NCBI RefSeq assembly: GCF_963678975.1
Contig: NC_089284.1
Span: 991,001 to 1,055,000 of the forward strand
Direction: 5' to 3'
DNA from: Dysidea avara
Lineage: Eukaryota; Porifera; Demospongiae; Dictyoceratida; Dysideidae
Length of the DNA stretch: 64,000 bases
Shown here: positions 1 to 47,904 of the stretch, piece by piece
Layout: every line of letters begins with the position of its first letter
Position numbering within the stretch: position 1 is the first letter of the stretch
Program-made: the position numbers and the translations under genes
The notes under the pieces: generated by a model
Databases searched by the model: none
Told to the model about the DNA's origin: nothing
Seen by the model: only the letters and a program-made list of their open reading frames with translations

Positions 1-2672
1 ACCATTCAGAATAAGCACTACAAAGTTCATGTTATGATGAGACCATGGAGTGAAGGAGAGATAAAATCAATTAATGACGTAGAAGAACTTTGTGATTTAT
101 TTTGCAGGAGATCTCTGTACAAATTCTGTCCTGGAATTGATCCTGTGCATTATGAGAATCAGTACCACAAAACAATTCGATTTCATATCAAAAGTGTTCG
201 GCAGTCAGAATTTCCATTTTCACGAGTAGATTCTGTGAATTGCAAACTCTGGTTTTTACCTGCATCAAACTGTAAGGTAGCAGAGAAAGATGCTAGTGAA
301 ATGAAATGTCCTCCTTGCAAACGTTTGGTCCATGACCTAAACCTCCAAAGAAAACGTACCCTGGAAGAAAGCCCAAGCAGAAGGATAAAAAGGCAATGTC
401 CCTCTTCAAGAGCACGCCTGCAGTATATGTCACCTGCCAGCAAGCAAACACGTAAACGGTATGCTCAATATCAACGATCCAGTAACATTCGGAACTTACG
501 AAGGCTAGAGGATAGTGAGGTTGTGCTCAGTGATGAACAGAATGTGGAGATGTGTGCAGTAATGGAAGCAACACAAGCTGAAGATTTGGATAAGCTGTAC
601 CAGGAAGGAGACCAGCATGGAGTAGGAAGTCTAATGAAGACATTGTGGTTGACAGATAAAGATCGCCAGCAAAAGCAGTTTTTCTCAGATCAGGAAAAGA
701 ATAGTAAGTGATATTTTTTTGTTTTGCATTACTTTTGTCTACTCTTTTCTTTCAGCTAACGGAGGTCGTGGGAACAGGTGGAACATGATTACTATCCGTA
801 TGGGTAAGTGAATTATTATACCGTATTATTGCTTTCACACTGTTTGTTCCTGTAGCCCTAGCTATTTATACTCGTAGCCCTGCAGCCTACAAAGCTCTGC
901 AAAGTTTTGATATTTTAAAATTACCATCAAAATCCACCATGCAAGCATTCACTGGAGCTTTCATGCATGCTCCAGGAGCAAGTAACGTTTGCATCATTAA
1001 GCAAGTGGCCCAGTATGTTTTATTTAAAGAAGACTGTCGAAAGAATGGACGACAAGAGCCACAATCAGATGGAGCCTTGATATTTGATGAGGTCAAGGTG
1101 GCCTGTCAGTTAATGTGGAACTCCCGCAACCACCAACTAATGGGGTTGGCAATGACATCGAAGGACATGGCATCTTTGAGCGATGTTTACCGCATTCTAA
1201 AAGATCCTGAAGCCAGCCAAACATCTTATATTCTACAATTTATTTGGAGAGACCTTACCAGCAGCTATGACATAGTGGGTCCTTACTATACATCTGCTGC
1301 CTCAGTGGAAGCCACTTTTGTAGTGGCTTGTTTGTTTGAAACCATCAAGCTTTTTCAACATCATGGTCTGAAGACAAGTTTGTTGGTCTGTGATGGAGGA
1401 TCTGCAAATATTGCTACAATTAAAGCAAGTCATTACTGCCATGGGGCGTATTCGATCAAAGAGGATGGGAATGACAGATATGAGGTAGAGCCATGGATGA
1501 TTAACCCTTTTAATCCTCCAAACAAGATTTTCTGGTTGATTTGTCCATCACACCAGGTAACTGTAATATGATGGTTGTGTTAAGTAATTGCTCTATTTCA
1601 TAGTTGAAGAATATGGTCAATGCACTGTTTTCATCCAAGGAAGGAGGGACGAAACAGTTTAGACGGGGAGACTCTACAGAGTTTGGATGGAAAGCAGTCA
1701 CAGACTTGTATGAGAGAGAGCTGCTACGGGTACACAATGGTCAGGCAAGAATGGTACCAAGATTGAGGGAGGCTCATTGTTTACGTGACTCATGGACAAA
1801 ACTGAATGTATTGCCAGCTAAAATTATGCAGGTAAATTTGAGGTTGTATTTAAAAATAGAAATGTTATGTGACTTATACAACCTTGTATTGTGTTTATGT
1901 ACCACTTGTTTATACAGCAGGAGCAAGTCCTTGGTGAACTATTTTGGTACGTGAATCAGAATCCTCCACCAAACGATGCAGCAAAAGCGCAGGAGACTTT
2001 TGCCTACCTAGAAGCTTGCAGTTTCATTTTTGAACAGGGATTATTGTCACACGATCAGATCAAAAGCTTAGATAGCAAGGTCCATCAGAACATTACAAAG
2101 GGGTATGATTATTTTTCTGAATGGTTAACTTCTATCCTAAAGAAAGGTACTGCCATACTATGGTATTATATAGGTACTGAACCACATTGTACTTGTTATT
2201 AGATCCTCAATATCCTCATACATCATCTACCCAGCGGTCATTCCTCTCTTGGCAAAGTAAGTTTGTTTACCATAAACAATAACTGTACAAGTGTCAAGCT
2301 GTTTAGATTTAGCCGTATAATTATTTATATGACTGACAATCATTTGTATAATCTTGTTTAACAGCATGGGACCTACTACGAATCGATGTATATGGATTTC
2401 AAGCATTCTCCAAGTGGTTTCTATCAACGTATCCTACATATTTTATCTCTCCAATTCGCCTGTCAGGATCAGCTGTGGAAAGCTTGTTTAGCCAATACAA
2501 GTTTACTGCTGGTGGAAAATTGGACTCGGTGAATTATACTACTGCTCGAGCTGCTCACCTAATCAAGCAATGTGCTGCTACACATCACAGCGGTGTCAAC
2601 TACAGGGATGAACAGCTAAGTCTAGTACAAATTCCTCTGGAGAAGAAGTCGTACAATAAAAAATCTGTGTAA
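1..2672 (+). CDS. P-superfamily-like DDE transposase, 5' end cut by window edge
   Basis: Probable cut-and-paste DNA transposase with an RNase H-like fold. I join seven GT-AG exons: 1-703, 756-803, 856-1556, 1604-1831, 1918-2146, 2203-2256 and 2365-2672. Introns are 46-108 nt and every phase matches, giving 756 visible residues with no internal stop. The frame is open to base 1, so the start may lie outside; the first visible ATG is at 34. Candidate catalytic residues are D328 in LIFDEVKV, D430 in LVCDGGSANI and E693 in VESLFSQYK. Between them, CPSHQLKNMVNAL resembles the segment after D2 in P-element transposases. The N-terminal part is basic with a few cysteines, and no complete THAP finger is visible. 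The stop lies 93 nt from the stop of the convergent companion gene at 2766-4342. Superfamily assignment rests on motif order only; it could be a separate family. Confidence 0.72.
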
Positions 2673-2765
2673 TTTTTTAATCACATTGTTTGTATTATAA
2701 TGAATGAAAATTACTTCTTACAACAAAAAATCAGTGTAATTTTAAATCACATTGTTTGTTAAAAA

Positions 2766-4342
2766 TCACTTCTTACTTCCTAGCTTAGTTTCTAATTTGG
2801 CATGATGAGCTAAAAGCGTAGGTCTTAAATTTATGTCAACTGTTGATGCCAAGCCTTTCTTTGTTGCCAGCTGTTGCTTTGTTGCTGACAAGAATTCTTG
2901 AATTCTTGTATTACAGATTTTCCTTGTAAATGTTTCAAATACATTCCTAATGGCATCTTCTGAATAGATCGTTATGTTTGGTGACTTTGAAGCCAGTATC
3001 TCTTTGAATGTATCGAAGAATTTTGTCTCTTCCTGAATTCTTTCATGTGTTATCTAGAAGGAAGACAGTTATTTAAATTGATCACAACAAAGAGTAAGCT
3101 AACCTTAATTAAATTGTCCCCTTCTTGGTGTAGCCAATCAGGATTCACAGTTTCTTTGACTGCAGTATCCACTTGTCTCAAAAATGGTATAAATGTAGGA
3201 TCAGGGGAGTACATGTATCCTTGGTCACGGTACTTGAGGTAACTTGGCATACTGACTTTATCCTTGGAATTCATACAGTGCAAAATCGATATCTCCTGGG
3301 ATAAAATATTCCTTTGATCATCTTTGCAATGCTTCATTTCTTTGTAATGAAGATGGAGCAAGTCTGATATAGCTGCACCACCAAAACGAAAATACACATC
3401 ATCTCCATCAGCTACCTGTGTTGTACTTTTATTACTGGAACTTGTGGTACTGGAATTATTACTCTGAAAATGGTTAACATGACCCAGTAAGCAGTGGTAC
3501 AATGCTGATGATATGGTCATCATCACAGGATTACTCACTGGGACAGGCACATCATTTTCTTCACAGAATCTTAGCCACATTGTTCGAGATTCGTCAATCT
3601 GATAACCAACTGGATCAGGTAGTCCAATTTCTAACATGGTGTGCTGGCTGGCTAATAAGAAGGCACTGCAGTACTTCTGCCACTGAAACTGGAAACGCAA
3701 AAAGGATTCAGGCCCCTTTTTACACTCTTTATACAGACCAACAAAACACAGTCGATGGCTCACGATTATATCCTTAAGGGGCTGCTCTGTATCATGGAGC
3801 TTGACAGTGATTTTCTTCAACTTTTCAGAAAATAGCTGTTCATCAAATTTGACATAAACCTCACTTAGAAGTACAGAAAGATCAACTGACTCTAAAGATG
3901 CCAGCATCTCATTTCTCTCTCTCTGGTTCATTACTTTCGACTTTTTTTTCTTTGGTGGTGGTAAGCAGCTTTCTGGTGTCTGTGACGGCTCTTTATTGGC
4001 TGGAACTGCTCGTTTTCCTCGGCCCTTTCCTTTCTTCTCTGCAGTTGGTTTGGAGCCATCTCGCGTTCTAGAAAAGCTATAGTATAATTACGCGTCAATG
4101 TTCAGACTTTAGTTACTACCTGTTCTCCTTAGTCATCCCTCGTTTCTGCCTTACAGTAGCTGCTTCTAGCTCAAGTTCCAGCGGACATTCACTCTCGGAA
4201 TTTCGGCTTGCCACGCTACAAGAACGGGGCTTACGTTGAGAATTAAGCCTTATAACGCTTTAAAAACTTACCCCTTGTGAATCTTATCTTTACCTGCTGC
4301 TTTACTCCTGGTAGTTCTTTTCACACTTTCAGCAGTCGCCAT
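2766..4342 (-). CDS. 472-aa companion protein of the P-like element, family not recognised
   Basis: I do not recognise a named domain. Four exons on the minus strand join in frame: 4342-4272, 4215-4120, 4067-3104 and 3053-2766, with introns of 50-56 nt and GT-AG ends. The ATG at 4342 is the first in frame. The first 100 residues are basic and low in complexity, with clusters such as KGKGRGKRA and PPPKKKKSK that look like nuclear localisation signals. The middle is globular, with WLRFCEEN and a Ser/Asn/Thr-rich linker before DDVYFRFGGAAISDLLH. I recall multi-copy sponge and coral proteins with this last motif, but without function. The C-terminus is helical and charged and ends in KLGSKK. The tail-to-tail position against the transposase suggests both genes belong to one mobile element. 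Role inferred only as nuclear and transposon-associated. Confidence 0.7.
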
Positions 4343-22122: not shown

Positions 22123-22319
22123 TATCACTTCTTTTTGTATTTGTATACTGTAAAGCCGGCCTATGGCTGGCTTTGGGGCTTTTTTAACCCATGTGTTTTT
22201 TTCTTTACTACAGGAAGAAGAAAAGAACTTAAAGAAGAATTTTAGTACTTCAATTATTTTTGATTTTATTAGTAATTATACAAATTATATACATATATTT
22301 ATTACATGCCCATTATGCC

Positions 22320-24300
22320 CCACAGGATGTTTTTTTGCAGCTGATCTCTCTACTGGGTGACTTGAAATGTAGCTGAACTATATACAGGATGGTTTCTTTG
22401 TAGCTGAACTCTCTACAAAGTAACCTCTTCTAGCTGGTCTCTCTACAGGGTATTTTGTTTCTAGCTGAACTCTCTACAGATGATTTGTTTGCAGCTAAAC
22501 TCTCTACATGGTGGTATCTTTGTAGCCGAACTCTCTACATGATGGTTTCTTTGTAGCTGAGCTCTCTATAAGGTGACTTCGTCTAGCTGAACTCTCTACA
22601 GGGTGATTTTTTTGTAGCTGAACTCTCTGCAGGGTGATTTGTTTGCAGTTGAACTGTCTACATGATGGTTTCTTTGTAGCTGAACTCTCTACAAGGTGAC
22701 TTCGTCCAGCTGATCTCTCTACGGGGTGATTTGTTTCTAGCTGAACTCTCTACAGGTGATTTGTTTGCAGCTAAACTCTCTACATGGTGGTTTCTTTGTA
22801 GCTGAACTCCCTACATGATGGTTTCTTTGTAGCTGAACTCTCTACAAGGTAACTTCTTCTCTACAGGGTGATTTGTTGTAGTTGAATTCTCTACAAGGTG
22901 GTTTGTATGAGGCTGAACTCTCTACATGGCGGTTTCTTCGTAGCTGAACTCTCTACAGAGTGATTTGTTTGCAGCTGGACTCTCTACATGATGGTTTCTT
23001 TGTAACTGAACACTCTACAAGGTGACTTCTTCTAGCTGATCTTTCTACAAGGTGAATTGTTGTAGCTGAACTATCTACAAGGTAACTTCTTCTAGCTGAT
23101 CTCTATACAGGGTGATTTGTTTGTAGTTGCAGGTGGTTTCTTTGTAGCTGAACTCTGTACATGATGGTTTCTTTGTAACTGAACTCTTTACAAGGTGACT
23201 TCTTCTAGCTGAACTCTCTGCGGGATAATTTCTTTGTAGCTGAACTCTCTATATGATGGTTTCTTTGTAACTGAACTCTCTACAAGGTAACTTCTTCTAG
23301 CTGATCTTTCTACTGGGTGATTTGTTTGCAGCTGAACTCTCTACATGGTGGTTTCTTTGTTGCTGAACTCTCTACAAGGTGAATTCTTCTACCTGATCTC
23401 TCTACAGGGTAATTTGTTTGTAACTGAACTCTGTACAAGTGCGTTTTTGTGGGTGATCTCACTGCAGGTTGATTTGTTTGTAGCTGAACTCACTAAAGGG
23501 TGATTTTGCTTGTAGCTGAACTCCTTGCATTGTATCTAGTTTCTAGCTGATCTCTCTACAGTGTGATTTATTTGTAGCTGATCTCTCTGCAGGTTGATTT
23601 GTTTTAGCTGAACTCTCTACAGGGTGATTTACTTGTAGCTGAACTCCTTACATTGTGTGTAGTTTCTAACTGATCTCTCTACAGGGTGATTTGTTTGTAG
23701 CTGATCTCTCTACAAGTTGATTTGTGTGTAGCTGATCTTTTTACAGGTTGATTTGTTTGTAGCCGATCTCTCTACAGGGTAATTTGTTTGTAGCTGAACT
23801 CTGTACAAGGTGCATTTTTGTAGGTGATCTCACTGCAGGTTGATTTGTTTGTAGCTGAACTCACTAAAGGGTGATTTGCTTGTAGCTGAACTCCTTACAT
23901 TGTGTCTAGTTTCTAGCTGATCTCTCTACAGGGTGATTTGTTTGTAGCTGAACTCTCTATAAGGTGATTTGTTTGTAGCTGATCTCTCTGCAGGTTGATT
24001 TGTTTTAGCTGAACTCTCTACAGGGTGATTTGTTTGTAGCTGAACTCCTTACATTGTGTGTAGTTTCTAGCTGATCTCTCTACAGGGTGATTTGTTTGTA
24101 GCTGATCTCTCTACAAGTTGATTTGTGTGTAGCTGATCTCTCTGCAGGTTGATTAGTTTGTAGCCGATCTCTCTACAGGTAATCTGTTTGTAGCTGAACT
24201 CTCTCCACAGTGACTTGTGTGTAGCTGTATTCTGTGTAACTGAATTCTCTAGAGAGTGACTTAGTTGTAGCTGAATTTTCTACACAGTGCATGACTTATT
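22320..24300 (+). repeat. Minisatellite, about 31-bp period, copy A
   Basis: Dozens of diverged repeats of the form gtagctgaactctctacagg followed by gtgatttgttt or a variant. Two alternating subtypes (gaactctctaca and gatctctctaca) suggest higher-order repeats. No coding potential. Confidence 0.9.
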
Positions 24301-25165
24301 TGTGATGTAATAAAATTCTATAATGGAATAAATAAATTAGCCGAATGCTCTATTAGGGTGACTGTTCTATTAGAGTATCTCGATCTCGCATTTGCTACAC
24401 GGAGTTGGCTTTCGAATCATAACTCAGTGGTTTGTAATCCGATTCTTCTGTACTACTGCAAGGACTTTCTATGAAGATTATTCCAGCTATACACCAATTT
24501 TCAGCTCATTGCTCTAAGCGGTTTGCCTAGTAGGCGTGAAAACTAATACTTTTTTATTCATAAAAATCGATCGCGTAATTGTGGCACAGGTTGGGTTTTG
24601 TGTCATATCTCCATGGTCTTTATCTCGATTCGTTTCAAACCACCAAAAGGCACTCCTACGATGGTTACTCCATCTACATAGCAATTTTCAACTCATTCCA
24701 TGAAGCGGTTTACCCTGTAGGCGTGACAACAAATCGATCTTGTTTTACGCGAATAATCGGACATAACTCCTGAACCATTCATCGGATTTGTACCAAATTT
24801 GATGCTAGGATTCGTCGTTGGACTCCCTTTCTGTGTGCCAAATTTCAAGGCGATCGGAGTACGCGTTTGGTTGTTATAACAATTTTTGCAAGTGTGCAAA
24901 AAGACGAAGAAGAAAAAAAACGAAACTTTGGCAGCTCGTATCTCGGAAATGGCTGGAGCGATTTCCTTCAAATTTGGAATGTAGACTCCCTTGGCTGGCG
25001 GGCAACTGTGTAGCAAATTTGGATCCAATCAGATAAGTGATCACCGAGATACAAAGGTGTGAAAATGACGTTTTCGTTCTTCCTGTCAATATACTCACGG
25101 GTGTGGCGCGCCGGCTTCTTGGGCCGCACGACACACTACCGTGTGTCTTGATATATATATATATA

Positions 25166-33805: not shown

Positions 33806-34890
33806 CTAATAACCCGTAGCAGCTCCATTTAATTCAATAACTTTAGGAAATACTTTTCTAAGATGATTAATGTACTTATTACATTTGTCAATAGTAACAG
33901 TTTCCCAAAATTGCTTTATTCCTTCTATCAACTCTTCCTTCGTTGTAGGCTTGACGACACGTCGGTTGTACTCCTTTAGTTCGTGCCAAAGGTTTTCGAT
34001 TGGGTTACAATCGGGAGATTCAGCTGGAGTCCTCCACCAAGTCACTTTATTCTGAGAAAGGAAGTCCTTCGCTTCGTTGGAGGTATGCTTCGGGTCATTG
34101 TCAGCCATAAAACGGTGACTATCTGGATAAACACTTCTGAGAAAAGGCAATAGCGTCTTCTCCAATACTTTTGTGTACAAAGTGGCATCCATGATACCTT
34201 CGAAGATGCAGATTCCTGTTCGTCCTCGTTTGCTGATCCCTGCCCAGACATGTACTTTAACTGGATGTTTGGCCCTGTATAAAAATAACATTAATTTACA
34301 GTAACACATTTTTTAAAATAATGTATTTATGCATATATATATATTCGATGTAGATTATACCTGGGTTTCAGTCTAGGAGGTTCTCCTTGCTTTCTGCAAC
34401 AGAATCGTTTGTGGCTTTCCAGTTGCACAGAGCATTCGTCCGTCCAGACTACATCATCGAAGCTGTTGTGAAGGTATTGACGAGCCCACTCTAGCCGCTT
34501 CACTTTGTTGGCGTGTCTGATCAACTGGCAGTATGCACTTCCTCGAAATGTCCAGCCTAGCTGGGTGCGGCAGCGAAGAACAGTTCTTTCACTGATGTTA
34601 AATCCTTGCGATAGCAGCAGGGAACGCAATTGATATGCAGTCGTTTCGTCGTCCTCCCTCATCTTTGCCTCTACAATCGCTTGCATTTGTTGCGTGATTG
34701 ATGATGGTCTCCCTGAACCAGGCTTTCTCGATAGTGAGCCGGTCTCAATAAATCTAGCAATGAACTTAGCCACACCATCTCGCGATACTTTTAAGTTTTC
34801 TTTAAGAAGCAACTTGACGATCGTTGGAGGTCTACATCCAAGTCGATAAAAGTGAATGATACGTCGTTTCTCGTACAGGTTATAAACCAT
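33806..34890 (-). CDS. Tc1-type DD34E transposase, 332 aa, apparently intact
   Basis: Cut-and-paste transposase acting on TA targets. Two exons, 34890-34361 and 34274-33806, join in phase 2 across an 86-nt intron into 332 residues without a stop, close to the usual 340. The N-terminal paired-like helix-turn-helix region begins MVYNLYEKRRIIHFYRLG; the GSGRPSS segment is the GRPR-like linker between its two halves. Catalytic residues are D151 in WTDE, D235 in MADNDPKH and E270 in NPIENLW, with 34 residues between the last two, the Tc1 signature. It is convergent with the BEN gene of the same element. With intact frame, triad and both TIRs, the copy could be recently active. Confidence 0.92.
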
Positions 34891-35662: not shown

Positions 35663-36489
35663 ATATCAAGACACACTATCGTGCGGCCCAAGAAGCCGGC
35701 GCGCCACACCGTGAGTATATTGACAGGAAGAAAGAAAACGTCATTTTCACACTTTTTTATCTCGGTGATAGCTTATCCGATTGAAACCAAATTTGCTGCA
35801 GAGTTGCCCGCCAGCTAGGGGAATCTACATTCCAAATTTGAAGGAAATCAATCAAGCCATTTCCGAGATATGAGCGGCCAAAGTTTCGTTTTTTTTTCTT
35901 CGTTTTTTTTCTTCTTCGTCTTTTCGCACACTTGCAAAAATTGCTATAAAATGCAAACGTGTGCTCCGATCGCCTTGAAATTTGGCACACAGAAAGGGAG
36001 TCCAAAGGCACATCCTAGCATCAAATTTGGTGCAAATCCGATGAATGGTTCAGGCGTTATGACCGATTATTCGCGTAAAACAAGATCGATTTGTTGTCAC
36101 GCCTACAGGGTAAACTGCTTCATGGAATGAACTGAAAATTGCTATGTAGATGGAGTAACCATCGTAGGAGTGCCTTTTGGTGGTTTGAAAGGAATCGAGA
36201 TTAAGACCACGGAGATATGACACAAAACCCAACCTGTGTCACAATTACGCGATCGATTTTTAGTAATTAAAAAGTATTAGTTTTTACGCCTACTAGGCAA
36301 ACCGCTAAAAGCAATGAGCTGAAAATCGGTGTATAGCTGGAATAATCTTCATAGAAAGTCCTTGCAGTAGTATAGAAGAATTGGATTACAAACCACTGAG
36401 TTATGATTCGAAAGCCAACTCTGTGTAGCAAATGCGAGATCGAGATACTCTAATAGAACAGTCACCCTAATAGAGCATTCAGCTAATTT

Positions 36490-38500
36490 ATAGAATTCTA
36501 TTACATTACAAGTTGTTCTGTAGGGACTTCAACTGCAAACAGTTAATCTTATAGACAGTTCAGCAAGAAGCAAGTCACCCTGTGGAGAATTAAGCTACAA
36601 TTATATCACTGTAGAGATTCAGAACATTACAAGTCACACTGAAGAGAGTTCAGCTATGAACAAGTCATGCACCCTGTAGAGAGTTCACCTACAATTAAAT
36701 CACTCTCTAGAGAATTCAGCTACACACAAATCACTGTGCAGAGAGTTCAGCTACAAACAAATTATCCTGTAGAGAGATCATCTACAAACAAAACACTTTG
36801 CAGAGAGTTCAGCTACAAACAAATCAATGTTTAGAGTGATCAGCAACAAACAAATCAACTTGTAGAGAGTTCAGCTATAAACAAGTCATGCACCCTGTAG
36901 AGAGTTCACCTACAATTAAATCACTCTCTAGAGAATTCAGCTACACACAAATCACTGTGCAGAGAGTTCAGCTACAAACAAATTATCCTGTAGAGAGATC
37001 AGCTACAAACAAAACACTTTGCAGAGAGTTCAGCTACAAACAAATCAATCTTTAGAGTGATCAGCAACAAACAAATCATATTGTAGACAGATCAGCTACA
37101 AACAAATCAACCTGCAGAGAGATCAGCTACAAACAAATCAGCTTGTAGAGAGATCAGTTACACACAAATCAACCTGTAGAGAGATAAGCTAGAAACAAAT
37201 CACCCTGTAGAGAGTTCAGCTAAAACAAATCAACCTGCAGAGAGATCAGCTACAAACATATCACCTTATAGACAGTTCAGATACAAACAAATTACCCTGT
37301 AGAGAGATCGACTACAAACAAAGCAACTTGCAGAGAGATCAGCTACACACAGATCAACTTGTAGAGAGATCAGCTAGAAACAAATCACCCTGTAGAGAGT
37401 TCAGCTAAAACAAATCAACCTGCAGAGAGATCAGCTACAAACATATCACCTTATAGACAGTTCAGCTACAAACAAATTACCCTGTAGATAGATCGACTAC
37501 AAACAAATCAACTTGCAGAGAGATCAGCTACACACAATTCAACTTGTAGAGAGATCAGCTAGAAACAAATCACCCAGTAGAGAGTTCAGCTACAAAAAAA
37601 TCAATGTGCAGAGAGATCAACTACAAACAAATCACCCTGTAGAGAGATCATCTAGGAACTAGACACAATGTAAGGAGATCAACCTGTAGAGCGATCAGCT
37701 AGAAACAAATCACCCTGAAGAGAGGTCAGCTACAAAAAATCACCCTGTAGAGAGATCAGCTAGAAACAAATCACCCTGTAGAGACTTCAGCTACAAAGAA
37801 ACCATCACGTAGAGAGTTCAGCTACAAAGAAACCACCCTATAGAGAGTTCAGCTAGAAGAAGTCACCTTGTAGAGAGTTCAGCTACAAAGAAACCATCAC
37901 GTAGAGAGTTCAGCTACAAAGAAACCACCATGGATGCGGAGAGTTTAGCTGCAAACAAATCACCGGTAGAGAGTTCAGCTAGAAGAAGTCACCTTGTAGA
38001 GAGTTCAGCTACAAAGAAACCATCATGTAGAGAGTTCAGCTACAAAGAAAGCACCATGTAGAGAGTTTAGCTGCAAACAAATCACCTGTAGAGAGTTCAG
38101 CTAGAAACAAATCACCCTGTAGAGAGATCAGCTAGAAGAGGTCACCTTGTAGAGAGTTCAGCTACAAAGAAACCATCATGTGGAGAGTTCAGCTACAAAC
38201 AAATCACCCTGTAGAGAGTTCATGTAGAAGAAGTCACCTTGTAGAGAGTTCAGCTACAAAGAAACCATCATGTAGAGAGTTCAGCTACAAAGAAACCACC
38301 ATGGATGTAGAAAGTTTAGCTGCAAACAAATCACCTGTAGAGAGTTCAGCTAGAAACAAATCACCCTGTAGAGAAATCAGCTAGAAGAATTTATCTTGTA
38401 GAGAGTTCAGCTACAAAGAAACCATCCTGTATATAGTTCAGCTATATTTTAAGTCACCCAGTAGAGAGATTAGCTGCTAAAAAATATCCTGTGGGGAATA
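36490..38500 (-). repeat. Minisatellite, about 31-bp period, copy C
   Basis: Same repeat family as in copies A and B. A segment of about 180 bp (near 36660-36840) is duplicated at 36890-37070, showing recent unequal exchange inside the array. Confidence 0.9.
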
Positions 38501-38692
38501 ATGGGCATGTAATAAATATATTTATATAATTTGTATAATTACTAATAAAATCAAAAATAATTGAAGTATTAAAAATCTTCTATAAGTTCTTTTCTTCTTC
38601 CTGTGGTAATTAAAAAAAAACACATGGTTTAAAAAGCCCCAAAGCCAGCCATAGGCTGGCTTTGCAGTATACAAATACAAAAAGAAGTGATA

Positions 38693-39014
38693 TCTAATCA
38701 AAAACAGCCAAGCTGTAAAAAAAGGTGCGGCCCCCAAAAAGGCCATGGTGAAAAAAGATGTGAAATCCAAGGTGGCGGCCAAGAATGGCTGTGATGGTAG
38801 GTTAATGGTAAAAATTTTAATAACGACAATTCAGGTGAATTTTGTGCCACTTGGTCTTGGCATCAAATTCACCTGAATTGTCGCTATTAAAATTTTTACC
38901 ATTAACCTACCATCACAGCCATTCTTGGCCGCCACCTTGGATTTCACATCTTTTTTCACCATGGCCTTTTTGGGGGCCGCACCTTTTTTTACAGCTTGGC
39001 TGTTTTTGATTAGA
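38693..39014. repeat. Terminal hairpin of copy C, near-perfect
   Basis: Arms of about 150 bp pair from tctaatcaaaaacagccaag to cttggctgtttttgattaga. The inner arms contain acaattcaggtgaatttt and its mirror, with a loop near 38862. Confidence 0.85.
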
Positions 39015-39588
39015 TATATATATACTGAGGAGAGTATCCTACACATATGCCCCTGTAGAAGGCAAGATGTGGTTTGTGATGTATGAGCAGCCGTAAAAGT
39101 GCAAGAATCGTTAGCACCATTTCACACTCGTAACACTCAGGATAGCCGTATTCGCAAATGGCCTACAAGAAACACCTACGAAGCGGTCTTAACCCATGAA
39201 GTAACGATTGTAGTTAGGTGAGAAATGCTTAGAGCTGGAGTTAATTTGGTTACTATCGGCGTTGTTAGGCATGCTTTCAATTGATACCATGTTCAACTAT
39301 TGACATCATTAAAGGGAGAGTGACATGCATTAAATTTTTTTTTTTTTTTATGTATGTATGTATAGTTAAAGATATGATAGATATGTACAACTGTATGATT
39401 TGTAAAAATATAATATGATGAGTGAAAAATGGTGCTCTAAAATGGGATTATTTGCACTGTGTCGGCTCTTCTGGGTTGCGGTAAAAATGCGTTCTTTTCC
39501 TTAATATGTCACAAGATGAATGCAGCTGTGTAGTATTTATATTGACAAGAGTACCAACGTGCGAGCATAGTTGAAGCGAATAGTTAAA

Positions 39589-42060
39589 ATGGTTAAGTGG
39601 TGCGTTGCTATGAATTGTTCTAAGACTCACCTGGATGGTGTAAACTTGCATGGTTTTCCGACAGACTCTTCGCTGTGATTAGAGTGCACCCGGCAAGTCC
39701 AGAGAACTTTTAGTAACTGGACAGGACCTAGTCAACACTCAGTTATTTGCAGCGATCATTTCACGAGTGACTTCTTCGAAGAGGACACCGCTATAGCAGC
39801 ACAATTTGGGATTGAAAAAAGAGTGCGTCTAAAGCCAAATGCTGTGCTAACTGTGTTTCCTCATGCCCAGTCCAGCTCCACCTCGAGCTACACACAATCG
39901 CCATCTGTCACAGTACTTGTCACAGTACTTGTCACCGACATGGAACAGCAATGTTCAAGCTGTAAAAGACCTGGTGAGGAAGTGTCCGTCCCAGTAAAAA
40001 AGAAAAGAACCGTGTATGAGAAAAGAGATAGATCTAGGGTAATAAACCGCCAATTGACTTATTAACTAGCTATTGGTTTATGTATTAATAGATTGTACAA
40101 GAAGTGATGGATGCTCAGTCAGAGCAGCAAGATACTTTTGTTGGTTCTAGCCAATTGCAATCTGTGAATGAGGCTGCACAATCTCGGTACACTAGCTTTG
40201 GGGTCCAGGCTTTCCCAGACGTTCTTGATGCTCATACTCAGGCTGCAATTGTCCCTGAGGTCACTCTTTTTGGTAGGAACCAATTAATGTTATCTGCTAT
40301 TGTAATATGAACCTGCATGGTTACAGGTGTCCAGGTAGCACCAATGATGTGTGATGTAGGAGTACAGTGTAATCTCTTACATATTCCGATGACATCAACT
40401 CCTAAAAAAGGAGTGATAGCACTAGTGGCTGAGGATGAAGACACTTTCGAATTGACAAAAGAAGAAGAGAGTGAAACAGCCTACAGAATCCACCATAAAT
40501 TGGGAGTCCACTACATCAGAAAATGAAGAACAGATTCCAGTAGAAAAGCAACTGATTTTTCTGGTGTTTGAGTCTGCTCTCATGTTGCTGTTTGCCACCT
40601 GTGTTGCATGTGGCAGTACCTTTATTTCCATCAAACGCCATGTGATTGGATCTTTCCTCAGCATCAAGCAAGCATGAAGCCAGTGTAATAATACATTTGT
40701 TTGGGAAAGCCAGCCTTATATACGTAACATTCCAACTGGGAATCTTCTGACATCTGCTGCTATTCTGTTGACTGGCTCTTTTCCAGCTAAGGCACTCAGA
40801 GTATTTAAGACCCTTAATTGTGCTACAATAAGTAGAAAAACATTTTTTAGACATCAGAAAAAATACCTTCACCCTGCCATTCGTGTTATTTGGGAGAAGA
40901 ACCAATTTCTACTCCTTAGAAAACTGAAAGAGAAACAGCAAGGCTTGGTAATTGGTGGTGATGGAAGATCTGATAGCCCTGGACACAGTTCCAAGTATGG
41001 ATCATATTCCATGCTTGAATTGAATCTTAATAAAATAGTGGATATACAGCTTGTTCAGGTAAAACTATATTATGATGAAGTATGTGGTGTATACTAACTG
41101 TAAATTAAATGATTTACAACAGAGCAATGAAGTTAAGGGAAGCTACCATATGGAGAAGGAGGACCTCCATCGCTGCATGGACTTTCTTCATGGCCATAAC
41201 CTTGCAATTGATGTACTTGTCACAGGCAGACATAAGCAGATCAACAAATGGATACATGCACACATCAAACACTATTTTGATACATGTCGTGTAGCAAAAG
41301 GTACATACTTGTGCAGTACCTGTTGCAATAATCAGAACTGGTGAGTATATCTAGGTTTTCGCAAAAAATTAGTGAAATTGGCAAGCAAAAGGATTGTGAA
41401 TTGGTTATAGTATGTTCACGTTGAGCTGAATCCTGAAAAAACAGCTAAAAATTAAAAGTGGATTTTTTCTCAACAGACTTAACATTTCAGCCAACCAGAT
41501 GATTATTGGTAACAGAAAAGGTGTCAACAACAGACACGTACGGTTTGGCACCATTACAAGTTTGGGAAAGGGCTGTAATGGACACTGTACTTATGTGGCT
41601 TCCCATTGGAAATGTATTGTGAACATTTTGATTGGCCATAAATATTATGTCAAACATTTGAACAAAAAGATTTCGAAATATTTTTAGCGGGTCAAGCACA
41701 AAAGCAACTGAGAAGCTAACATCTCTTCTGACCAATTCAACACACTTGAAGGACATGACCCGCCTTTCTGGTGCTCACCAGGCATCTAAGTATAGTATAT
41801 TTGGATATCATTATTTTGCCCATAATAGTATAGTTCACTTTAGCATTGTACATGAATTTTACATGATATACATTATTTGTAATATTACAATTTAGGGTAC
41901 TTAAAGACTGCATACAGTATGTCTCTGAAGGAAAAGTGTGCCTTATTTTATCCACAGCACAACTTGGTAGTGCTATTCTTACAGATTTTCCCAGCCAACC
42001 CCAGCACCAACAAGTCTGCTGACAGTAGCTTGTGTATCACTACTGCCTGTACATTAAATT
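39589..42060 (+). pseudogene. THAP-domain DDE transposase, disrupted
   Basis: The ATG at 39589 opens a THAP zinc finger: MVKWCVAMNCSKTHLDG, then a break after FPTDSSL (in-frame stop at about 39679), continuing in another frame as RQVQRTFSNW and HSVICSDHFTSDFFEED (C2CH pattern). Later exons give SEQQDTFVGSSQ, VQVAPMMCDVGVQC and, after another frame change, NIPTGNLLTSAAILLTGSFP, LKEKQQGLVIGGDGRSDSPG and GSYHMEKEDLHRC. D in GDGRSDSPGH is a probable catalytic Asp. The second, in a motif that reads TDRHKQI in relatives I recall, is Gly here (VTGRHKQINKW), so the enzyme would be inactive even if the frame were open. The 3' part after 41340 is degraded. It is convergent with the ballast-like gene. 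Confidence 0.78.
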
Positions 42061-42675
42061 AAAAAGTTCAATGGGAATGTGGTATATCAGTGTAACGTAC
42101 TCATGAATGGATTCTTTATACTTGCCATACTGTTGTCTGTATCGATAATATGCAGTCTGCAAGACCCACTGGTTTAAACAAACTGCATCAAATCTTTCAC
42201 TTTCAGTGATACATGAAGCACCAATTACTTCCATCTTCTCTACCACTTCACCAATGGAACAGCAGCATATACAGTACATTCTCTTCTAGTGGGCATCATC
42301 TTACAATTGCCACAGTGACACCTGTAAGAATTGTATTATTAGCTAACAAGTAGTGGTAGAATGGTCATACCAGCTCATATCATTGGGCAATTTCCCAAGT
42401 AGCTCTTCATCAGACGATGATTCATCCTCAGTCAGTCAGTCTGTATTGCTAGCGTTAGCATCTATTGGCTCAAATTGGTAAGGTTCAAGAGAGGTTCCAG
42501 TCATCTCCTCAGTGTCTTCATGATCGTCTGTGTTGTCGCTGAAAATGCTCATTTTATCGCTAGAGACCAAACTGGAAACGTTACTATATTCATCAGAAAT
42601 ATCTTGGGAATCAATTGAACATTTCAAGCCAGGAGTAGTACAGCAGGAATCCGTTGACGACTTGGAAGTATCCAT
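42040..42675 (-). pseudogene. P2X7 C-terminal (ballast)-like cysteine-rich protein, broken
   Basis: In vertebrate P2X7 receptors the cytosolic ballast is a zinc-binding, cysteine-rich domain; related stand-alone proteins occur in invertebrates. The ATG at 42675 begins an acidic, Ser-rich leader. After an in-frame TGA (about 42442) come DESSSDEELLGKLPNDM, a splice donor near 42371, and then WCHCGNCKMMPTRREC. After a further frameshift come EVVEKMEVIGASCITE, FDAVCLNQWVLQTAYYRYRQ and GKYKESIHEY. The CxCGxC start, CIT and CLNxWVLQxAYYxYRxxYG motifs are the family signature as I recall it. The downstream part (in relatives roughly YRYIAYRQFVRWCWG) is missing. It lies inside the TIRs of the THAP element, in opposite orientation to the transposase. 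Confidence 0.72.
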
Positions 42676-43057
42676 AAAAAAGTCTTTCTATACCTATTAC
42701 TTCACTCTAATACGTGACTGAATTACTAATAAGATTTGATTCTTCCATGGAATGTATACTTCATTCATGCAGTGTTCCCCCTCTGACGTTAGCAACTTAT
42801 GACGTATTATAACGTATGATTACTCTGGAAACATTTTTGATCGTGTATTTCATTAACAAATCATACAGTAAATTAAATTTCAAATGTACAACCATAGTAT
42901 CAAATCAATTCAGTAATGAAATAAAAAAGAATTTTAAAATTCCATGTCTCCCTCCCTTTAATTATACACAGAAAAACAGGCGAACTCAGAAGTGCTATGT
43001 CATAACTTCACGATACGCCCTTCTACAGGGGTATATGAGAGTAGGATACTCTCCTCA

Positions 43058-43059
<2 letters not shown>

Positions 43060-44640: not shown

Positions 44641-44870
44641 AAAATATTGGTGGTGTAAAACATTGACGAATTTCATGCATATAGGTATGTGGCGAATAAA
44701 ACATTGGCGAATTTAATGCATGCAGGTATTTGGCGAACAAAACATTGGCAAATTTACTCACAAGATCGGTTTCTTCCAACACACTTGAGCGAACGCATAT
44801 AAGTCACATGATGCCTGTATGTGTGAAAACCCACAATTAAAAGTTTTGTAGCACGTGTCTTGCGAGAGTG

Positions 44871-46070
44871 ATGCACGAGTTCACACTTGCTAGTGTAGTT
44901 CGTGGGTACCACGAGTATCAAAATATCTGGAATGCTCCTATTGATGGAAGAGAGCTTCAGTGTGAAAGAGAACCTGGCAATCCCATGGATACATTCGCCG
45001 TGGCAGTTCTTGATCAGAGTAGTACTGGTCGGATTAGTGTGACAGTGGGCCATGTGCCCCGTCTTATTTCGACAGTTTGCTCAGTATTTATACGTCGTGG
45101 GGGAGCTATAGTGTGCGTTGTAACTGGACCTAGGCAATACTCCAGTGACCTGCCCCAAGGTGGCTTGGAAGTCCCTTGCCGTTATATCTTCAGAACAAAG
45201 GATTGCTCATTGGGGGAGAAGGCTAAAAAGGTGGTTAATGACGTCTTTAATGTTTTACAGAATGGCCGACCAAAAGCTGCTGTTAATGATTGTAGTCAGG
45301 ATGATGGCTTACTTGATGCTGTGGGTAATAATGATGGTCCACCTAAAGCTGTTTGTAATGATGATGATCCTAATGCTGTTTGTAATGATGATGGTCCTAA
45401 TGCTGTTTGTAATGATGATGGTCCTAATGCTGTCAGTACTGATGGCCCATCTAATCCTGAACCCATGATCGTTGTTGAGGATGAGGATGGTTCTTCTGGT
45501 AAACTTACTGTCACTGATGATAGTGACACAAGCAATGAACCACCATGCAAAAAAGCTAGGATAATTGATCTTGACACAGAATATATCATCATGGGAGAGG
45601 AACTGTCTGATGTTCACATTAATTTAGCACAAAGCTTACTAAAGGTGCAATTTCCTGAATTGGGTGGGTTGAAATCTACCCTATTGCAGCAAAAAGAGGT
45701 ATCAGCACTTGAAACAAAAGAAAAGGTGATTCAAATCATTCATTGTGCCAGTCGTCACCACTGGATAGTTGCAACTACCATTGGGGGTGGAGAAAATTCT
45801 GTTGTCGTTTATGATTCAGTTTTTAAGAATGTTGACAAAGACACTAGGAGAAACGTTAAAAAACTCTTTGAGTCCTTACCTGTCAAGAACATTAAAGCCC
45901 CCAAAGTACAGAAACAAAATGGGACCAAAGATTGTGGTCTGTTTGCTGTTGCATTTGCTACCTCATTAGCACATGGACAAAATCCTTCTGAGCAGAGATT
46001 TCACCAAGACTCATTAAGATCACATTTCGTGGCTTGCTTGGAACAAGGAGAACTTACCCCATTCCCCTAA
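44871..46070 (+). CDS. HIRAN - Ulp1-like cysteine protease fusion, 399 aa, intact and intronless
   Basis: N-terminal residues about 5-105 form a HIRAN-type domain: SVVRGYHEYQNIW, CEREPGNPMDTFAVAVL, VGHVPRLISTVCS and DLPQGGLEVPCRY. Residues about 140-195 are an acidic linker with 27-nt tandem repeats (VCNDDGPNA). MIVVEDED (199-206) looks like a SUMO-interacting motif and PCKKAR like a nuclear signal. The C-terminal domain fits the C48/Ulp1 protease fold: catalytic candidates H297 in HHW, D315 in VVYDS, Q349 in KQNG and C355 in KDCG. The family cleaves SUMO or similar modifiers, so de-SUMOylation of host or transposon proteins is plausible but inferred. The ATG at 44871 begins MHEFTLASVV. It is intact although the neighbouring transposase is not, which could mean selection or recent insertion. 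It could also be a host gene trapped between repeats. Confidence 0.82.
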   Translation: MHEFTLASVVRGYHEYQNIWNAPIDGRELQCEREPGNPMDTFAVAVLDQSSTGRISVTVGHVPRLISTVCSVFIRRGGAIVCVVTGPRQYSSDLPQGGLEVPCRYIFRTKDCSLGEKAKKVVNDVFNVLQNGRPKAAVNDCSQDDGLLDAVGNNDGPPKAVCNDDDPNAVCNDDGPNAVCNDDGPNAVSTDGPSNPEPMIVVEDEDGSSGKLTVTDDSDTSNEPPCKKARIIDLDTEYIIMGEELSDVHINLAQSLLKVQFPELGGLKSTLLQQKEVSALETKEKVIQIIHCASRHHWIVATTIGGGENSVVVYDSVFKNVDKDTRRNVKKLFESLPVKNIKAPKVQKQNGTKDCGLFAVAFATSLAHGQNPSEQRFHQDSLRSHFVACLEQGELTPFP

Positions 46071-46214: not shown

Positions 46215-47693
46215 GACGTACATATAGTCCATGGAGAGTCTATGCCTGTGACTTGGAATTGACACAGTCAAGTATACCCGCTTCCTTGAAACTATTCTTG
46301 ATGATATCAGGCTTGCCTTTTAAGTAGTTGAAGAGATCTACCAGCTATTTTGCCCCAAGTGGTTTCATTATGCTGAGTCTCAGATCAACTGGTGCCTTTA
46401 AGGTTTTCCCTCCAATTGTGAGCAAACTTGCAGAGCATACCACCTTTGAAAACTTCTGCGTAAGAATTCTTTTGCAGCTTTATTCACGCTGAGGTCTAAG
46501 GGCTGTAATCGGTCTGTACAATTGGCTGGGATCAGAACCACGTTTACATTATTACTATCAAGTACTTTGAGCAACTTCTCGGTGCACTGTCCCTTGAAAT
46601 TATCAAAAAGTAATAACGATGGGTACTTTGGATCAAGCTTCGACCTTTTTTTTTTGTCTCAAGGAGGTAAGGCAAAATAATTTTGGTAATGTACAATTCC
46701 ATTGTGCCTTTGTTACACCAATGATTCTCTGTATGTGTGATATTCCAGTCTGGTGGAAACTGAAAGGAGGGCAAGCATTTAGTGGTCTTTCCTTGATACA
46801 CCAATTGCAACGGAAGGAAATCACCCGTTGAAGAACATCCAAAAACTGCCGTTATCTGGCGCTTGTCATCTTTGCCATCAATTGGGACCCACTTAGCACC
46901 TTCCTTTTCCATAGTCCATTCTGAGACTGGTACATAACTGAGCCCGGTTTGATCCCAATTAATCACTAACTCCGCTGGTACCTCATCCATGGTGATAACA
47001 CTTTTGATGTCTTGGAGAAATAACCTTTTGAGTTCATGAAATTTCTCAACATCTACTTTAGCTTTTGTGTTTCCTTTTCTTTTAACGAATCCCATTCGTG
47101 TACTTTGCCCATTCTTTTGTTAAGATTTCTGTCGAGGCGCCCACATTTTTGCTAAGCAGTATCCCCTCTCCAACAGCAATAGCAACATGTGCATTCACAG
47201 TCAAGCCTCTCTTCCTCGTATCCAATAAATAGTGCTGTATTTGCTGATCGATTTCGTCTCCAGTGGCCAATGGTCGGCCGGTTTTCTTGCTAGGCAATTC
47301 TTTTGGAAATTCAATATCTGTTTTCCCCAAGCATTCAGCGTACAGTTTCATGTCATCCTTATAGGCGTTTTTAAACCTGCGAACACTAGTCTCAGTCAGC
47401 TGAAGGTCCCAGTATTTTTCATTATAGTAACGCATTGTTGCGGTAACGCCATGCTCAGCTACTTGCTTGCCGATTTCAAACTTTTGTGTTCCTGTCAGAA
47501 ATAGATATGGCTTTCCTCGTGGGCCTCGCTGGCTTTCACTTCTGTCCACCTTGTCCTCCTCGAGAGCCTTTTCCATCTTGGCATTAGCTGCGGCTATTGC
47601 GGTGGAAGGAACCTTTTCACTTAATGGCCCAGATGGCTCAGGCAAATCTGGCCCTTTTTGCTTCAAGGGACGAACAAACTTTAGAATAGACAT
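46215..47693 (-). pseudogene. Pogo/Tigger-type DDE transposase, several frameshifts
   Basis: The ATG at 47693 begins MSILKFVRPLKQKG. The N-terminal region has GTQKFEIGKQVAEHGVTATM and later KTGRPLATGDEIDQQIQHYL, a helix-turn-helix/CENP-B-like arrangement. The frame breaks near 47090, where NGIR-stop overlaps MGFVKRKGNTKAK. The catalytic core has D1 in VINWDQTGLSY. A run of ten A near 46644 shifts the frame again before D2 in SLLLFDNFKGQC and D3 in CTDRLQPLDLSVN. Another shift and a stop follow around 46410-46350, and the end reads SFKEAGILDCVNS. Four or more lesions, so inactive. It is convergent with the HIRAN-Ulp1 gene, ending about 145 bp from it. Confidence 0.82.
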
Positions 47694-47904
47694 TGTCGCC
47701 ACTTTAGACCAAGAAACACACAAAACGTTTTCAGCCGTACTATTTTAAACACAATATCGCGAGTACCGGTAATTTAAATTTTTTTTAATGAGATTCGTGT
47801 GGAATTTGGAGGTGGAAAACTTATTTGGTGAATTGCCAGTCATTCGCCAAATTCGCCAAAGTTTTCCCCCGCCACTGTTTTGCTCTATACAGTACTTTAA
47901 GGGC

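Follow-up and report, generated by a model that had tools for sequence, protein, structure and literature searches.

The 64,000-nt stretch of the Dysidea avara genome analysed here (the window; contig NC_089284.1, positions 991,001 to 1,055,000) harbours a transposon that we interpret, with a probability of about 0.93, as a dead Kol0-type Kolobok cut-and-paste element, nested in a miniature inverted-repeat transposable element (MITE) and carrying two convergent genes, one for a THAP-DDE transposase and one for KolX, a relative of the ballast domain of the P2X7 receptor. According to Kojima and Bao (2022; PMC9587614), Kol0 Kolobok transposons encode a transposase and KolX, and sponges are among their hosts; the authors assign the ballast fold to KolX, with seven cysteines and two zincs, derive P2X7 from a P2X4-like gene that fused with KolX, and read Nanor as a domesticated KolX. 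This was the only transposon paper among the matches listed for 'KolX' in the literature. An earlier note on this DNA had described a THAP transposon with a P2X7 ballast-like gene and had suggested a mobile-element origin of the P2X7 fusion, which agrees with Kojima and Bao but was already in print. The link between KolX and P2X7 has been published since 2022, and the D. avara copy is a further example of a known thing.

The Kolobok element spans 39313-42957 (3645 bp) and is decayed and internally deleted. Its limits are given by the flanking TTAA, its own terminal inverted repeats (TIRs), empty sites in copies of the host MITE and the right ends of 26 related loci. The two copies of the TTAA target-site duplication can be read from the sequence at 39309-39312 and 42958-42961. 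Just inside them lie the left terminal repeat AGGGAGAGTGACATG (39313-39327, plus strand, 5'-RR) and the right terminal repeat CATGTCTCCCTCCCT (42943-42957, minus strand, YY-3'), which are complementary at 13 of 15 positions; the termini AG...CT fit the Kolobok pattern 5'-RR...YY-3'. When the right part of the window served as a DNA query, the relatives retrieved ended at about 42961. Of the 29 loci examined from this set, 26 extend as far as the end, and TTAA follows in all of them (26/26). Since L087-L089 are the same copies as L083-L085 and more loci share their flanks, these 26 loci correspond to 23 copies in about 12 distinct surroundings. In a second family, three near-identical copies start with TTAA|AGGGGCA in different surroundings. 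For the element at L039, a member of this second family, the right terminus was not found with the test used. The interval 39313-42957 represents the canonical insertion of a Kolobok element into an unrelated MITE.

The earlier note had assigned to the transposon a length of 4034 bp and exact TIRs at 39025 and 43058. The sequence confirms that these 40-bp inverted repeats exist and enclose both genes, but they are the TIRs of the MITE that received the transposon and not the ends of the gene-bearing element, so that this length and these boundaries are wrong. A DNA search of the 550.8-Mb D. avara genome with the left end proposed in that note gave 62 matches, the best 40 of which were scored, and MITE copies were examined at 27 of the 39 other best-scored places (the published D. 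avara assembly comprises 575 Mb; PMC12909245). In these copies, the sequence left of 39312 joins directly to 42958-43058, with neither transposase nor ballast gene in between; when the flanks were joined by script, they aligned unbroken across the TTAA join in 24 of the 27 copies, which represent empty sites. The exceptions (L006, L049 and L053) carry inserts at or near the join. The insert of L049 is a different one, about 0.25 kb long with inverted repeats of its own and located at the same MITE TTAA; those of L006 and L053 are short.

The host MITE is about 0.45 kb long and has target duplications of 7 bp. These are identical in 14 of the 27 loci, corresponding to 11 distinct sites because L005, L008, L043 and L059 share flanks; one base differs in three loci, five show no match in this register (three of which share flanks and are read as an 8-bp palindrome), and no pair of MITE ends was located in another five. 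Together with the empty sites, these separate 7-bp duplications show that the 40-bp repeats belong to the MITE. Its left half in the window (39025-39312, one TTAA included, inner TIR at 39025-39064) runs straight into 42962-43058 in the 24 empty copies, and its right half covers 42958-43058 (inner TIR at 43019-43058). The terminal repeat of the MITE is longer than previously given (CAAGAGTTCATAATATATATACTGAGGAG...) and continues outward through a TA run; judged from other copies, the full right TIR in the window perhaps reaches about 43137. A near-perfect foldback (38690-39017; two 160-nt arms, 98% complementary and 8 nt apart) adjoins the left end of the host MITE.

The transposase gene lies on the plus strand. 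Its THAP-domain exon (39589-40065) contains an in-frame stop, and in the Pfam scan the THAP domain (PF05485, 39685-40062) reached 28.4 bits at a cut-off of 23.9. Core pieces extend over 40311-41802, with GGDGRSDSPGHSSKYGSYS at 40954-41010. They were identified by tblastn with transposase pieces from L093 (hits at 40311-41341 and 41698-41802 of the window) and with a piece of the L039 transposase, which matches at the first-D motif; the core matched no transposase family in the Pfam scan. Relative to the window, L064-L067 and L093 carry about 0.6-0.65 kb extra at 41787/41788, a stretch that in L093 encodes LESFH...LAALHFNEN. Of the features of a DDD/E transposase with C/DxxH and zinc-finger signatures, the window shows the first-D motif, homologous to that of KolX-linked transposases; the C-terminal part is missing in this copy. 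The statement that the ballast gene stands opposite a THAP transposase is confirmed by the THAP score above cut-off and by the relationship of the transposase to those of other KolX-bearing copies.

Convergent with the transposase, a relative of the P2X7 ballast is encoded on the minus strand at about 42675-41905. We compared the window with 37 stand-alone PF20478 proteins drawn from a large protein database, 28 of which match it (tblastn, E <= 0.01; best 1.6e-12), and all 29 rows start at 42,000-42,549 on the minus strand. Our exon model combines the three reading frames with the relatives L092 and L093, the splice sites being assigned by eye. Exon 1 (42675-42371), acidic and serine-rich with a YQFEP motif, occupies together with the first intron 42322-42675, and its frame is open in L092 and L093. 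Exon 2 (42321-42122), defined by reading frames and tblastn, contains CHCGNC, a cysteine cluster and SCIT; with the second intron it spans 42047-42321 and is frameshifted here. Exon 3 (WCWGWLG...LPSCAVDKIR, also matched by tblastn) covers 41905-42046 with an approximate end and has in-frame stops at its start. With its frameshift and in-frame stops, the three-exon KolX of the window is a pseudogene. The Kolobok copy as a whole is dead, showing stops, a frameshift and the loss of about 0.6 kb of the transposase.

The comparison of the cysteine-rich segment with Pfam, proposed in the earlier note, gave a mixed outcome. The last exon (41920-42036) matches PF20478 (P2RX7_C) at E 7e-4, with 19.9 bits at a curated cut-off of 23.5, and the middle piece alone had no Pfam match; no scanned piece of this KolX gene, split by introns and frame damage, reaches the cut-off. 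A search of the PDB with this middle piece returned chance matches only. The gene with a P2X7-like cysteine pattern previously placed at 42675-42040 is indeed homologous to the P2X7 ballast (tblastn, PF20478), but it is not one open gene, and exon 3 lies past that end. Similarly, CLNQWVLQTAYYRYRQ, put forward as a P2X7 signature, is located within the homologous stretch, yet the alignments show it to be specific to the family of the window copy. The zinc-ligand cysteines of PF20478 (C42, C44, C47, C58, C59, C64 and C130) are each conserved to at least 90% over 34 proteins (alignment A1, which omits P0016, P0018, P0019 and P0037), and we read the seven-cysteine pattern by eye in the window's family, in exon 2 of L093 and exon 3 of L092. 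In this family, only the acidic N-terminal exon precedes the ballast, and no P2X channel domain is fused to it. Another Dysidea KolX (P0001; L039 at about 3230-3480) has in its N-terminus a cysteine-rich stretch that by eye resembles a CXC DNA-binding motif; for P0001, Pfam gave nothing here with E values up to 1. Upstream of KolX, L092 (positions 1-3100) contains coding-like stretches that do not align with the window transposase, perhaps belonging to another transposon.

The pairing of the two genes is widespread in the D. avara genome. A genome-wide PF20478 search gave 132 matches at E <= 1; 17 of them score under the cut-off, and the others exceed it, in some cases only jointly with in-frame neighbours; the window copy is absent among these matches. 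Transposase pieces (E <= 1e-4) were found within 1.5 kb of 25 of the 30 best ballast loci, on the opposite strand in 25/25. As L036 and L038 are the same place, this amounts to 24 of 29 independent places; among the 24, L013, L014, L017 and L020 are copies of the family that supplied part of the transposase queries. The same queries hit none of 23 control pieces (16 window tiles outside the element and seven MITE loci). In the family of the window copy, transposase pieces occur within the stretch examined at 20 of 29 loci. The pair does recur in other copies and families, a point that the earlier note had proposed to check. Between families the KolX protein is conserved though synonymous sites are saturated, for which reason only pN versus pS is quoted; close copies differ by 0 to 11 changes per pair, too few for dN/dS (0.47 for the pair L009/L011).

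For a related intact sponge KolX of the L039 family, the predicted fold is P2X7 ballast-like, the sole significant match among solved structures; the seven non-P2X7 hits in Foldseek are all at chance level (E 6 or worse). In an unrooted tree of 42 rows, six vertebrate P2X7 tails form one clade (100/99), which groups with five stand-alone proteins including one from the oyster Saccostrea (95/81); the KolX rows nearest to P2X7 are P0023, P0024, P0026, P0027 and P0031. The KolX rows from sponges occupy scattered positions (six changes, at least three forced by well-supported branches). The window's family groups with seven others, including one from the coral Montipora (97/95); its row is long and misses the first exon as well as some columns, and where it belongs inside this well-supported group is unsure. 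The tree omits P0016, P0018, P0019, P0020, P0025, P0036, P0037 and 15 of 21 P2X7 hits, as well as the Dysidea loci L011, L013, L014, L017 and L020 (near-copies of rows used) and broken or partial ones. As far as these sequences indicate, the tree fits the published KolX origin of the P2X7 tail, its root not being given by the tree itself.

With Kol0 Kolobok (Kolobok-1_XT and kin; PMC9587614), the D. avara family shares two genes (a putative DDD/E transposase and KolX), TTAA, the termini 5'-RR...YY-3' and the ballast fold. It differs by its own TIRs and a three-exon KolX, and the window copy by being dead and MITE-nested; the family may already be catalogued. Unlike the P2X7 ballast (PF20478), KolX is a stand-alone transposon protein with no channel and no membrane part. 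The Nanor/ZCD proteins (PTHR36981; PMC7016195) are likewise stand-alone ballast proteins with variable N-termini.

Several observations weaken the assignment to Kol0 Kolobok to some extent. No transposase match was found within 1.5 kb at five of the 30 best ballast loci (L027, L029, L030, L032 and L035), nor at nine of the 29 loci of the window's family. The left TTAA end was checked in the window copy and in L039-L041; in the window's family, L093 is truncated or masked at this end, and L092 is rearranged. The Kol0 placement rests on the carriage of KolX, and the fold prediction was made for the L039 family, the window's own protein being broken.

We weighed three other explanations of the locus. 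A single 4034-bp THAP transposon with its own TIRs at 39025 and 43058 and the ballast gene as captured cargo would suit the inverted repeats, which are real and have both genes inside. However, 24 of 27 repeat pairs enclose short gene-free sequence continuous through one TTAA, gene-bearing relatives end at 42957|TTAA and not at 43058, and the duplications of the MITE measure 7 bp (14 of 27 loci) as opposed to the Kolobok TTAA; this explanation is hardly tenable, and its boundaries were rejected by the empty-site analysis of MITE copies. The ballast gene does belong to a transposon, but as the standard second gene (KolX) of a Kol0 Kolobok and not as captured cargo. Just as implausible is an element of the P superfamily (THAP, 7-8 bp duplications) instead of Kolobok: the THAP domain and the 7-bp duplications of the surrounding MITE would be compatible with it, but those duplications belong to the MITE; the element with the genes shows TTAA and 5'-RR ends, and at the first-D motif its transposase matches that of the KolX-bearing L039 family. 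On account of the 7-bp duplications, a P-type or new element had been considered and was dropped after the TTAA pair and the MITE join had been recognised. P element/THAP9 transposons are not known to carry KolX. They have in common with Kolobok the THAP domain and an RNase-H-fold transposase of the C/DxxH superfamily group, but their target duplications measure 8 bp and their transposase includes a GTP-binding domain (PMC7776569).

It is also very improbable, if slightly less so, that the ballast gene is a host gene taken up by one transposon copy (transduplication) or transferred from a P2X7-bearing animal. P2X7 is a vertebrate host gene and one copy alone would not be diagnostic, but none of the analyses supports this explanation directly, and within a single sponge genome gene and transposase recur together across many diverged families. 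In the unrooted tree, moreover, sponge KolX is scattered (at least three forced changes), whereas P2X7 is one clade. Rump et al. (2020; PMC7016195) described the ballast domain across animals and treated stand-alone proteins as host genes; the accessible part of their text contains no word beginning with 'transpos', but mentions that in one Ixodes protein a 'TAHP' domain, presumably THAP, lies ahead of the ballast. Their dating of the capture that made P2X7 to ancient jawed vertebrates also speaks against a host-gene source of the sponge copy.

In an active Kolobok element, the THAP domain would let the transposase bind the element ends, with cutting and joining at TTAA; cut-and-paste at TTAA by a THAP-DDE transposase is proposed because of family membership. 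Owing to its conservation and recurring position, KolX may be a two-zinc accessory protein needed by the active element, in which case it would most likely either form a small subunit of the transposition complex or stabilise that complex. A more specific and unlikely variant is that KolX acts as a guanine-nucleotide-binding zinc subunit of the Kolobok transpososome, giving in trans the GTP-dependent end-pairing that in the P-element transposase, likewise of THAP type, is part of the protein itself. This idea draws on the P-element precedent (PMC7776569) and the P2X7 site, and two arginines kept in KolX would fit a reduced site. It loses strength in that Rump et al. (PMC7016195) find only R546 and R578, among five contact residues, retained beyond deuterostomes; by eye, KolX has lost the equivalents of H547, R574 and K583, which speaks against use of the same site. 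If the idea is true, the P2X7 ballast would have kept its GDP/GTP site as a relic of transposition.

Further mobile-element traces were noted elsewhere in the window. Long inverted arms at 22172-24924 and 35899-38642 (e.g. 593 nt at 95% and 338 nt at 90% complementarity, 11-16 kb apart) may form the complex termini of a separate, large mobile element. By eye, two open frames with a frame break between them (33806-34890, minus strand) resemble a Tc1/mariner transposase, and open frames at 46544-47723 (minus strand) with an NWDQTGL motif a pogo/Tigger-type DDE transposase. A 400-aa open frame on the plus strand (44868-46070), likewise judged by eye, looks Ulp1-protease-like in its C-terminal part and has a repeated ..DDGPNAVCN.. 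stretch.

The locus illustrates that a nested insertion can lead a scan to give an element wrong TIRs. Following the proposal of Kojima and Bao, the P2X7 ballast would be a later host re-use of a KolX-type domain. The D. avara data provide genome-wide sponge support for this published descent of the P2X7 cytosolic tail from a transposon protein, based on the best ballast loci lying beside Kolobok transposase (25 of 30), on deeply diverged families and on a conserved protein.
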